From positions 1 through 64,000 of the forward strand of contig NZ_NFIU01000007.1 in NCBI RefSeq assembly GCF_002159535.1: DNA of 64,000 nt, given 5' to 3'. Both the position numbers and the translations under genes were made by a program. Of this stretch, positions 44,961 through 48,127 are shown piece by piece. Numbering within the stretch: position 1 is the stretch's first letter; each line of letters starts with the position of its first letter. The stretch comes from Olsenella sp. An290. GTDB taxonomy: Bacteria > Actinomycetota > Coriobacteriia > Coriobacteriales > Atopobiaceae. Under the pieces are notes generated by a model that saw only the letters and a list, made by a program, of their open reading frames with translations, was not told the origin of the DNA and ran no database searches.

Positions 44961-45092
44961 GGCCGCCCTTTCGTCGAAGGTGCTCCTCCGATTATGCCAC
45001 GGACGCGAGGGGTGCCCGGCCACTTCCTGCGTTACGTAAGGCGTCGGGTCGCCTACCATAGAGGCGTTGTGGCATCGCGGGAAAGGAAGCCC

Positions 45093-46319
45093 ATGGCGCA
45101 TCAGAAAATGACCAAGGCCGAGAAGAGCTGGATCGTCTACGACGTGGGCAACTCCGCGCTCGTCCTTCTCGCCACGAGCGTCATCCCGATCTACTTCTCC
45201 TCGCTCTCGCCGGAGGGCGGCGTGGTGGTGGCCTGGAGCTACGCCGAGACGGTGGCGTCTTTGATTATCGCGCTGCTCATGCCCGTCCTGGGCTCGATCG
45301 CGGACATGCAGGGCATGAAGAAGAAGTTCATCGTGGGGTGCGTGGGCACGGGCGTCGTGGCCACGGTGGCGCTCGGCTTTGTGACCACGGCGCTGGCGTT
45401 TCTGGTGATCTACGTGGTCTCGTCGGTGGCCCTCAACTCCTCGATGGTCTTCTACGACGCGCTCCTGGTGGACACCACCACGGACGACCGCATGGACGAG
45501 ATCTCCTCGGCCGGCTACGCCTGGGGCTACATCGGCAGCTGCGTGCCCTTCATCGCGTGCCTGGGCGTGGTCCTGGGCTACGAGGCGCTGGGGATCACCC
45601 TGCAGACCGCCATGCAGATCGCGTTTTTGATCACCGGTCTGTGGTGGGCCGCCTTCACCGTGCCGCTGCTGCGCAACGTGAGGCAGCTCCACTACAAGCC
45701 GCGCGAGCCGCACGCCGTCTCCCGCGCCGTCCGCGGGCTTGCGGGGACCCTGCGCGAGATCTGGGCGAACCGCGCCATCCGCTACTACATGATCGCGTAC
45801 TTCTTCTACATCGACGGCGTCCACACCATCATCAAGCTCTCCACGAGCTACGGCACCGAGCTCGGGATCGACTCCACGCAGCTCGTGCTTGCGCTCCTGG
45901 TGACGCAGTTCGTGGCGTTTCCCTCGGCGATCATCTACGGGCGCCTCTCGTCCCGCTACGGCACGCGCCGGATGCTCCTGATCGCGATCGCCGCGTACTT
46001 TGGCATCACGCTCTTCGCCGCGTTCTTCCTGCGCTCGGCGGCCGAGTTCTGGTTCCTGGCGATCCTCGTGGGCATGTTCCAGGGCGGCATCCAGGCGCTC
46101 TCGCGCAGCGAGTTCGGAAAGCTCTGCCCCAAGGAGCGCGCCAACGAGTACTTTGGCTTCTTCGACATCTTTGGCAAGTACGCCGCGATCCTGGGCACCT
46201 TCCTCGTGGGCACGTTCACCGCGCTCACCGGCAACTCGAGCATCGGCGTGCTCTCGATCGCGGTGCTCTTTGTCGTGGGCTTCTTCGCGATGACCCGCGT
46301 GCCGGAGCGCACGGCGTAA
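45093..46319 (+). CDS. MFS transporter, UMF1 (Atg22-like) family
   Basis: One of two plus-strand genes. The 408-residue protein has about twelve membrane spans and the UMF1 hallmarks WIVYDVGNSALVLLATSVIP, MPVLGSIADMQGMKKKF, NSSMVFYDALLVD, SSAGYAWGYIGS, and IRYYMIAYFFYIDGVHTIIK. Members of the family export amino acids or small metabolites; the substrate here is unknown. ATG 45093 follows GGAAAGGAAG. A TTACGT...TACCAT pair (45032-45059) is a possible promoter. The gene points at the repeat-bounded locus downstream. Confidence 0.9.
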   Translation: MAHQKMTKAEKSWIVYDVGNSALVLLATSVIPIYFSSLSPEGGVVVAWSYAETVASLIIALLMPVLGSIADMQGMKKKFIVGCVGTGVVATVALGFVTTALAFLVIYVVSSVALNSSMVFYDALLVDTTTDDRMDEISSAGYAWGYIGSCVPFIACLGVVLGYEALGITLQTAMQIAFLITGLWWAAFTVPLLRNVRQLHYKPREPHAVSRAVRGLAGTLREIWANRAIRYYMIAYFFYIDGVHTIIKLSTSYGTELGIDSTQLVLALLVTQFVAFPSAIIYGRLSSRYGTRRMLLIAIAAYFGITLFAAFFLRSAAEFWFLAILVGMFQGGIQALSRSEFGKLCPKERANEYFGFFDIFGKYAAILGTFLVGTFTALTGNSSIGVLSIAVLFVVGFFAMTRVPERTA

Positions 46320-46389
46320 GGGCGGCTCTTGGCGGCAGCGGGCCGGGCGGCTCTGGGCGCGTGGCACGCGTAACGCCACTTTTTCGGAC

Positions 46390-46431
46390 ATCCCCGTTTA
46401 CGTATCCCCCTGAGGATGCGTAAACGGGGAT
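46390..46431. repeat. 18-bp inverted repeat ATCCCCGTTTACGTATCC
   Basis: Arms at 46390-46407 and 46414-46431 pair with one G-T mismatch and a six-base loop (CCCTGA). It lies about 70 bases after the UMF1 stop. The GTTTACGTATCC core is shared with both 108-bp direct repeats at 46460 and 48020 and resembles the TACGTA array at 37428. It can serve as a terminator, although no U-tract follows. Confidence 0.8.
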
Positions 46432-46459
46432 TTCCCATCAAAATGCACGGTTTTCTCGC

Positions 46460-46568
46460 GCTACGCATCCGGTAGTTTGAAATTTATCACGCGCAAACCA
46501 GAATGTCCGACAATCCTCGTTTACGTATGCAGCACCCCCCCGCGCGGGCGAGAAGAACCCGCAGGTCC
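46460..46568. repeat. 108-bp direct repeat, copy 1
   Basis: Begins GCTACGCATCCGGTAGTTTG and matches 48020-48127 at about 85% over its whole length, including GAATGTCCGACAATC, CGTTTACGTATG and the final GGGCGAGAAGAAC word. It stands between the UMF1 gene and the nuclease-like gene. The two copies are in the same orientation and 1,560 bases apart. Confidence 0.9.
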
Positions 46569-46579
46569 CTGTGAGGACG

Positions 46580-46659
46580 GCAAAGCGCGCGTCTCCCCCG
46601 ATGACCCGGCGCGACCGTGCGCCCGAGATGCAGGTCGTGTGGAGACGCGCACGCTTTGC
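46580..46659. repeat. Inverted repeat GCAAAGCG...CGCGTCTCC
   Basis: The left arm (46580-46596) and right arm (46641-46659) differ by a two-base insertion. A smaller CCGAG/CTCGG pair spans part of it. It lies inside the 5' gap of the nuclease-like gene. Confidence 0.7.
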
Positions 46660-46824
46660 GATCGCGAGCGCTCGGGCCGCGTTCTTCTCGCCCGCGTCCC
46701 ACCTCGCCGATGGCGCGCGGGCGGCTCACGGCCGAAAGCCATGCGCCCGCGCCCGGTCACCGGGGCGGAAGCCGTGTGAGCCCCTCGTCTGCTAGCCTCC
46801 GGCCACCGGGAGGAAAGGGGGGCC

Positions 46825-47934
46825 ATGGACATCTTCCTCGCACACGAGGATTCGCTCAAGCTGTTGCGCCACGCCCGAAGGGAGGGCGGCCTCGCGCTGG
46901 TCAGGGCCGGACCGCGCGAGCTCGGCCGCGACCACGGGCACATCGACGCGCGCACCCTGGCCCGCGCTCTTCCCGAGGGGCTCCTCGCGCCCTCGCGCGC
47001 GCATCCCGTCTCCCTGCGCTTCTGGGACGACGCGTCCCGGAGCCAGTGCGCCACCGTCCGGTCCATCCCCAACCTCGGCCGACTGCCGGACGGCTCGTAC
47101 CTGGAGGTCGTCCGGACCACGGGTGACCCGCTCTCTCCCGAGGGCGACGAGCCCGCGCGCGTCTTCGTCGAGTCGCCCGGGCTCTCGCTTCTGAGCGCCG
47201 CCCAGACCCTCGGGCGCATGGTGCGCGCGAGGCGCCTCACCAGAAGCGCAGCGATCGTCCGTCTGAGCGGATTTCTCATGGAGCTCTGCGGCTCCTACGC
47301 GCGCGACCCCCACCATCCCGCGTCGGGCGAGGTCCTCTACGACCTTGCCCCCGTCTCTTCCGTCACCGAGGTCGCGTCCTTTCTCGCGTCCGCCCACGGC
47401 CTCCACGGCCGCACGCTCGCGCAGATGGCGGCGGGATACGCCAACGACGGGTCGGGCTCGGCCATGGAAACGCTGTGGTACCACGTCTTCTGCCTGCCCC
47501 CGCGCCTCGGCGGCCTGCACCTCAGGCGCCCCCTCCAGAACGTTCCCCTCGCGTGGCCGGCGGAGGTGAGCGAGCTCGTCAGCCACCAGACCATGCGCCC
47601 GGACTTCTACTGGGCGGCCTACCACGCGGCCTGCGAACATCAGGGGAAGGACCATACGAGCGAGAAAGCGCTCGCCGAGGACTGCGACCGGGCGCGGGAC
47701 TACGAGCTGTGCGGGATCGACTACTTCCCCGTGACCAAAAAGGACGCGCGCAGCGAGCGGTCCGTCCGGGCGTTTCTCGCCCAGCTCGTCGGGAAGTTCG
47801 CGCCGTACGAGGGCGCGTCGTTTCTGCGGAGGAAGCGCCGGTGCCTCAACGACCCCGACGCCAGCGCGGCGCGCGGCGTCCTTCTCTCCCTGCTCCGCCC
47901 GGCGTCGTGGCGCTGGCAGGAGCAGGATGCGTAA
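46825..47934 (+). CDS. Unknown protein with AbiEi-like N-terminus and PD-(D/E)XK-like C-terminus
   Basis: The 369-residue protein is soluble. The N-terminal half (about 60-160) has a pattern seen in AbiEi-type and related regulators: LPDGSYLEVV, VFVESPGLSLLSAAQTL and LMELCGSYA. From about 210, ETLWYHVFCLPPRLGGLHLRRP, RPDFYW (Asp260), EHQGKD (Glu271, Lys275) and CDRARDYEL give the DUF559/Vsr-like nuclease order Glu-Asp-(Glu-x-x-x-Lys). GGGAGG precedes the ATG at 46825. It is flanked by the 108-bp direct repeats. Homologues may exist as hypothetical proteins; no function is known to me. Confidence 0.6.
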   Translation: MDIFLAHEDSLKLLRHARREGGLALVRAGPRELGRDHGHIDARTLARALPEGLLAPSRAHPVSLRFWDDASRSQCATVRSIPNLGRLPDGSYLEVVRTTGDPLSPEGDEPARVFVESPGLSLLSAAQTLGRMVRARRLTRSAAIVRLSGFLMELCGSYARDPHHPASGEVLYDLAPVSSVTEVASFLASAHGLHGRTLAQMAAGYANDGSGSAMETLWYHVFCLPPRLGGLHLRRPLQNVPLAWPAEVSELVSHQTMRPDFYWAAYHAACEHQGKDHTSEKALAEDCDRARDYELCGIDYFPVTKKDARSERSVRAFLAQLVGKFAPYEGASFLRRKRRCLNDPDASAARGVLLSLLRPASWRWQEQDA

Positions 47935-48019
47935 TCGGCGATTACAGAAACTCGGGTTTACGCGTTCTTCTCGTCATGCGTAACTTGGGATTTGGGGGCA
48001 TTTGTCACCCTTTTCCGAA

Positions 48020-48127
48020 GCTACGCATCCGGTAGTTTGAAGTTTTCCATGCGTAAACCGGAATGTCCGACAATCCCCGTTTACGTATGGCGCAGGCCCC
48101 GCCGGGCGAGAAGAACGCGCAGGCCCC
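48020..48127. repeat. 108-bp direct repeat, copy 2
   Basis: Second copy of the 46460 repeat, beginning GCTACGCATCCGGTAGTTTG. Upstream, the 47949-48000 stretch carries a GTTTACGC / GCGTAAC inverted pair around GTTCTTCTC. It lies between the convergent nuclease-like gene and argD and ends at the argD terminator. Confidence 0.9.

Follow-up and report, generated by a model that had tools for sequence, protein, structure and literature searches.

Why should one nuclease-like gene stand between two copies of a palindromic repeat, and do gene and repeat belong together? The question was raised by a locus in the window (the whole 64,000-nt stretch of DNA analysed here), which an earlier note had described as a single gene bounded by 108-bp direct repeats. 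Such a gene may be recent mobile cargo, a regulator gene or one half of a resident partnership, and the evidence on its architecture, relatives and inheritance is given below.

Architecture of the locus

Two repeat copies of 106 nt were found in the same orientation (Table 1). They are 79% identical in an ungapped alignment and 86% identical over 92 nt with gaps; the first estimate had been ~85%. The bracketing of a single plus-strand gene was confirmed, but the direct repeats are parts of two larger elements of ~165 nt with three palindromes each, and the gene is one case of a family. The third palindrome that had been noticed near 46390 is a head-to-head hairpin. The downstream element overlaps the gene end, and its first half-site, ATGCGTAATCGGCGATT, holds the stop codon (GATGCGTAA). 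On DNA folding, both elements were more stable than their dinucleotide shuffles.

The repeats are not explained by chance. The alignment score of the left and right 500-nt flanks was 67.5, and the direct-repeat flank scores of 412 other genes of the same genome reached 17 at the 99th percentile and 23 at most. The sequence at the feet of the window-element palindromes is AT[AG]CG/GCG. A GT[AG]G foot was sought on these palindromes and was absent; a single GGTAG was present in the linker only.

Table 1. Positions of the gene, the repeats and the related loci (numbers without a locus prefix are window positions)
Feature	Position	Strand	Basis or remark
Upstream palindromic element, three palindromes of ~40-50 bp, half-site ATGCGTAAACGGGGATT	46365-46531		DNA fold z -4.0; aligned to elements here and in other species
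Head-to-head hairpin GGACATCCCCGTTTACGTATCC / GGATGCGTAAACGGGGATTTCC	46386-46435 (arms 46386-46407/46414-46435)		91% complementary inverted repeat
Direct repeat copy 1	46446-46551	+	Repeat search of the window
Long inverted repeat GGCAAAGCGCGCGTCTCC / GGAGACGCGCACGCTTTGC	46579-46596 and 46641-46659		Between upstream element and gene
Nuclease-like ORF, 369 aa	46825-47934	+	Motifs RPDF (D260), CEHQG (E271), H277, D286; C-terminal region aligns with 3HRL
Downstream palindromic element, three palindromes	47924-48090		DNA fold z -3.5; aligned to further elements
Direct repeat copy 2	48006-48111	+	Repeat search of the window
Genuine RAYT with REP-like borders CGTGCAAAGG..CTTTTGCACG	L092:14876-15700 (G000 C3)		Y1_Tnp, 1.1e-15
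Second-family gene	L153:3156-4208 (G025)		Vsr-like motif ADFCW..GELDG
Second-family gene	L099:8825-9895 (G000)		Vsr-like motif ADFCW..GELDG

The gene lies in the gap between convergent genes, with a plus-strand MFS transporter ORF (45092-46319) on one side and minus-strand arg genes on the other, so its earlier placement in a minus-strand region was wrong. ORF calls were mechanical throughout.

The encoded protein

The 369-aa ORF had no match in Pfam, NCBIfam or PADLOC. The PADLOC anti-phage defence models returned 0 families for eight paralogs, and an Rfam scan of the window returned no family. In an alignment of 21 members, D260, H277 and D286 were invariant and E271 nearly so, and the order of the four residues is that of DUF559/Vsr-type nucleases. 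The catalytic-type E was replaced by N in two paralogs (L005 and L006).

The only PDB profile match was 3HRL ('endonuclease-like protein', DUF559-type), with an E-value of 0.87 and over exactly the C-terminal motif region. In the L003 subfamily, 10 of 11 members matched the profile of MTES_1575, which has been described as a novel Vsr-type REase (PMC3710099), all below the curated cut-off (best: 5.5e-5). One distant family member cleared the DUF559 cut-off (21.2 bits), and the matches of the paralogs were sub-threshold. The N-terminal two thirds of the family proteins matched no described family. As an AlphaFold model from five sequences reached a pLDDT of 35, the assignment to the PD-(D/E)XK fold rests on the motifs and weak profile matches. 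Together, these suggest a Vsr/DUF559-type, PD-(D/E)XK nuclease-like protein, and the earlier naming of the gene as nuclease-like can be kept on this basis.

Paralogs with their own repeats

The source genome (G000, a 2.15 Mb draft) contains nine family members. The closest paralog of the window gene is 53% identical and has different repeats. Paralogs that could be checked on both sides were mostly bracketed, and the element sequence was different for each: the bracket is the CGTTTACGTAT palindromic repeat at the window gene, GAGTGCGCGC and relatives at L002, GGTTACGTACA at L003, TTAACGCACA..TGTGCGTTAA at L005, AACTGGGTGGT with degenerate relatives at L008 and CATACATTCCACGCG at L009, where it surrounds a truncated gene. 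L004 has repeats on one side only, and L006 and L007 lie at contig ends.

L009 (G000 C1:128570-129022) has a hairpin border on both sides, with one copy near the truncation point, and resembles a module in decay. The L003-type, L005-type and window elements share a CTACC(TGCGG)-like motif in their core or linker (CTACCTGCGGAAACG, ACCTGCGGATATATG and ACTACCGGATGCG). Read on the opposite strand, this motif includes GTAG, the tetranucleotide of the REP foot.

Blind scan for flank repeats

The control genes came from ~780 kb of stretches, corresponding to ~36% of one draft genome (G000). In a scan of 419 genes, the highest flank scores went to four family members, a gene from a second nuclease-like family, an insertion sequence (IS) and a true RAYT. 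The window gene scored 67.5, L009 60.5, L003 59 and L002 19, and the controls went up to 24.5. L002 was outscored by each of three 'controls': the RAYT, the IS and the second-family gene. As these were the best of the 'controls', the test picks up a known system and singles out the genes described here; the RAYT serves as an internal positive control.

Across 31 congeneric genomes, 20 of the 28 scorable homologs reached at least 24.5, as judged against the G000 gene controls and with flanks of 600 nt instead of the 500 nt used for the controls. A null of mismatched pairs was set aside, as orthologous flanks had contaminated it. For other genera of the class, a score of at least 19 was reached by 9 of 23 family members. 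The genomes were one per species and mostly drafts. Named relatives were found in Olsenella, Thermophilibacter provencensis and an Atopobiaceae MAG; the viral contigs searched held no relative.

Most homologues bear flanking repeats, each with repeats of its own. The earlier note had named homologues without such repeats, and repeats without the gene, as points against a self-associated element. Both occur to some extent: some homologues have no flank repeat by this test, and gene-free repeat copies are present.

The second family, also unannotated, was found by its occupying the gap between argD and the MFS gene in other species, where it replaces the window gene and has its own repeats. It scored at least 22 at 19 of 27 loci and was often bracketed by palindrome arrays. 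It had no Pfam match and is called wHTH/Vsr-like from its sequence features.

Copy number and divergence of the repeats

The window element has few dispersed copies elsewhere in its genome, and these stand without the gene. For the close orthologs of L003, 17 of 19 were bracketed on both sides. In their elements, a central core related to CTACCTGCGGAAACG is surrounded by repeated half-sites, and the half-site is clade-specific.

Where an ortholog was bracketed, its bracketing motif had 8-117 genomic copies, and most other genomes had 0-4. Exact counts of GGTTACGTACA were 78 in G000, 8 in G007, 10 in G020 and 0-4 elsewhere; in G007 and G020, the bracket of the ortholog is a related GTACGTACCCT-type half-site with some GGTTACGTACA copies. 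The reversed GGTTACGTACA served as control and had 0 copies in all genomes. For GGTATGTACAC, the five genomes whose ortholog it brackets had 58, 117, 80, 70 and 11 copies (elsewhere a median of 0.5 and a maximum of 31). The two genomes predicted for GGTTATGCGCA had 30 and 40 copies of it, and 57, 44 and 42 copies were counted in three genomes in which no nuclease bracketed by it was found. Rank tests of bracketing motif against copy number gave p-values of 4e-4, 3e-4 and 0.025, with kinship ignored. Up to six genomes (G001, G019, G023 and G027; G004 and G009) had many motif copies and no bracketed nuclease found, and a search between close element pairs in G023, G019 and G001 found no nuclease genes. 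Hence, the coupling holds from bracket to abundance, and the reverse is not strict.

The bracket is retained across the 31 congeneric genomes, and the sequence of the stems varies from clade to clade. Among nine window-type elements taken from several species, two palindromes kept 80.4% standard pairs, compared with 74.4% in shuffled and at most 45% in slid alignments. Stem covariation amounted to 27 double-change cells versus 14.2 in shuffled data, and 0 of 500 shuffles reached this value. For the hairpin of the upstream element, double changes in other elements keep the complementarity. The variable pairs lie mid-stem, and the GCG and GGGATT ends and the linker are largely kept. The half-site is homogeneous within species and divergent between species, with complementarity preserved.

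Inheritance and turnover

The site between argD and the MFS gene holds a window-type gene in ten congeneric genomes. The gene at this site broadly tracks argD (Mantel r 0.75, p 0.001), and its dN/dS of 0.13-0.28 corresponds to purifying selection. A recent mobile insertion was rejected on account of this vertical inheritance and purifying selection.

At this site, the gene is inverted in five genomes. Between G030 and G019, ArgD differs by 3%, the nuclease differs by 36% and the repeats differ too; in G030, gene and repeats look like they were exchanged together, as an allele replacement. An empty site with one repeat copy, which the earlier note had suggested looking for, exists in G015. It holds one composite copy, in which the left and right repeats known from G023 and G019 are joined exactly through a 9-bp GCCGCGCGG. 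The exact join suggests a deletion rather than a site that was never filled. The earlier proposal of a repeat-bounded insertion that could excise was borne out by the empty site but not supported as a recent mobile insertion, given the stable site in ten genomes. Gene-free repeats, homologues lacking flank repeats and a stable gene site together argue against a self-contained excising cassette and for a pairing like that of REPINs and RAYTs.

In the region of the L003 orthologs, elements of G021, G017 or G016 were absent at the orthologous position in other genomes, with flanks ~82-97% identical. No clean case of a target-site duplication was seen at these presence/absence sites. G021 has eight elements within ~25 kb of its nuclease gene and 117 half-sites genome-wide. 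G017 and G012 show a similar clustering; the three form one clade with common descent, the only one in which clustering was seen.

At one position, a single element in G021 corresponds to a pair of elements separated by a gene in G017 and G012, which is consistent with deletion by recombination between neighbouring elements. A tandem unit of ~30 nt (CGACCAAGAATCCCGCGCGGCGCATGGCAC) beside an element varied widely in copy number between close species (flanks of L053, L054 and L055). The G021/G017 region that was tested first for mobility had no copies of the tested motif, and RAYT-type REPINs vary there. Matching intergenic sites of G021 C3 and G017 C1 (L251-L268) differed in whether they carried a REPIN-like sequence with a GGGGACAGG or GGACAGGTT core, and in its type.

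Relation to known systems

RAYT (TnpA-REP) genes and their REP/REPIN sequences, together called 'REPtrons', consist of a gene bracketed by dispersed palindromic repeats and are thought to be organised like the mechanism proposed below (PMC3116915, PMC8049555, PMC6006769). The loci described here share with them a gene bracketed by palindromic repeats that also occur in extragenic copies, repeats arranged as inverted pairs able to fold, and a vertically inherited partner gene at a stable locus. Genomes that carry the partner also have more copies, with reverse exceptions and with kinship ignored. Unlike RAYTs, the proteins are Vsr/DUF559-like by their motifs and not Y1 HUH transposases: Y1_Tnp matched none of the 21 members, and it matched the true RAYT of the genome at 1.1e-15. 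The elements also differ from REPINs in having several half-sites per arm around a core and, for the window element, no GT[AG]G foot, and there are about ten paralogous pairs per genome. Since both the Y1 domain and the GT[AG]G foot are lacking, the locus was filed as working like a REPtron and not as a RAYT.

With DUF559 (PF04480) and REase_MTES_1575 (PF18741), the family shares the C-terminal order D...E-x-[QDN]-G/S..H....D..R. It differs in that most members are below the curated cut-offs and the N-terminal part is unmatched. No description of DUF559/MTES_1575 domains with cognate repeats was found in the open-access literature. The motifs also suggest the broad PD-(D/E)XK fold class of the very-short-patch repair endonuclease Vsr, from which the proteins differ by having no direct match, a long N-terminal region and bracketing repeats. 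Insertion sequences and MITEs likewise combine a gene between repeats with dispersed gene-free copies. Here, by contrast, the gene stays at one syntenic site and no target-site duplication was seen. An IS identity was rejected, since gene and borders do not multiply together.

Overall, the gene belongs to a large unnamed nuclease-like family in gut Coriobacteriia, most members with a personal palindromic repeat that is also dispersed in the genome. The pairing looks like a second, independent partnership of the REP/transposase type with a different enzyme. A prior description of the nuclease-repeat association was not found in the open-access literature searched.

Interpretation

We consider it probable that the locus is a REPtron-like module, in which a resident, vertically inherited nuclease-like gene is paired with its own cognate palindromes, which also occur as dispersed, non-autonomous copies. 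Bracketing, paralog-specific repeats, coupling of copy number, structure-preserving divergence and turnover are observed in these genomes. The protein would bind the elements, with its variable N-terminal part reading the half-site. The C-terminal nuclease domain would be catalytically active and would nick or cut the element, probably in its extruded hairpin form. Repair after cutting would then copy, remove or homogenise elements, leading to gain and loss, and the nuclease would in this way have a causal role in spreading its repeats. With somewhat less confidence, we lean towards a broader statement: PD-(D/E)XK (Vsr-type) nucleases may be a second, non-HUH class of enzymes that disperse and maintain their own REP-like palindromes, with several parallel populations in one Coriobacteriia genome and pair specificities that drift together.

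The strongest competitor, although unlikely, is that the elements are operators, terminators or insulators, bound by a DNA-binding and perhaps catalytically dead regulator of itself and other genes, and are not mobilised. Elements near gene ends and in intergenic gaps, their strong folding and the two paralogs without the catalytic-type E fit such a role. Dozens of dispersed multi-half-site copies with a fixed architecture, presence/absence at orthologous sites and clustering around the gene in one clade go beyond the needs of an operator, however; moreover, most members keep the residues of the nuclease motif. We regard it as more doubtful still that the repeats act as hot spots of recombination and capture cargo, with the nuclease as ordinary cargo deleted or inverted by homologous recombination. 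The exact join in G015, the inversions at the same site and the loss of another gene between two adjacent elements in G021 are what such a passive cassette would produce. Yet cargo would be random, whereas the bracketed gene is repeatedly nuclease-like and from one of two families, each paralog has its own repeat and copy number tracks the bracketing motif.

Spread of the elements by the Y1/RAYT transposases of the genus, with the nuclease genes just adjoining them, is very improbable. G000 does contain a RAYT with REP-like borders of its own, and the REPIN-like GGGGACAGG-core sequences vary between G021 and G017, but the repeats of the RAYT are different, the nuclease elements are specific to the nuclease paralogs and the REP foot is not at the feet of the window-element palindromes. 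Chance or an assembly artefact, for which mostly draft genomes and mechanical ORF calls would leave room, can hardly be credited: it is refuted by recurrence of the pattern in many independent genomes, near-complete and named genomes among them, and the control counts are near zero.

REP/RAYT is the standard example of a long-lived partnership of gene and repeat in bacteria, and its benefit and spreading mechanism are still open. A separate system built around an unrelated enzyme would demonstrate repeated evolution of partnerships of this kind. As the same genomes also carry RAYTs, it would give a clean comparison. The many natural pairs of nuclease and half-site would serve for reading DNA recognition rules, and numerous DUF559-like genes of gut Actinomycetota that lack annotation would gain a testable role.

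Further motifs at the locus

The stretch from the upstream element to the gene contains another long inverted repeat (Table 1). The short motif GTTCTTCTCG / CGAGAAGAAC had 17 sites in the window versus 0.12 expected (e.g. 46549-46558, 46681-46690, 47964-47973 and 48107-48116). The sites are found in and out of genes and in element loops, and are visible at many congeneric loci. The motif resembles an uptake-type or element-linked signal.
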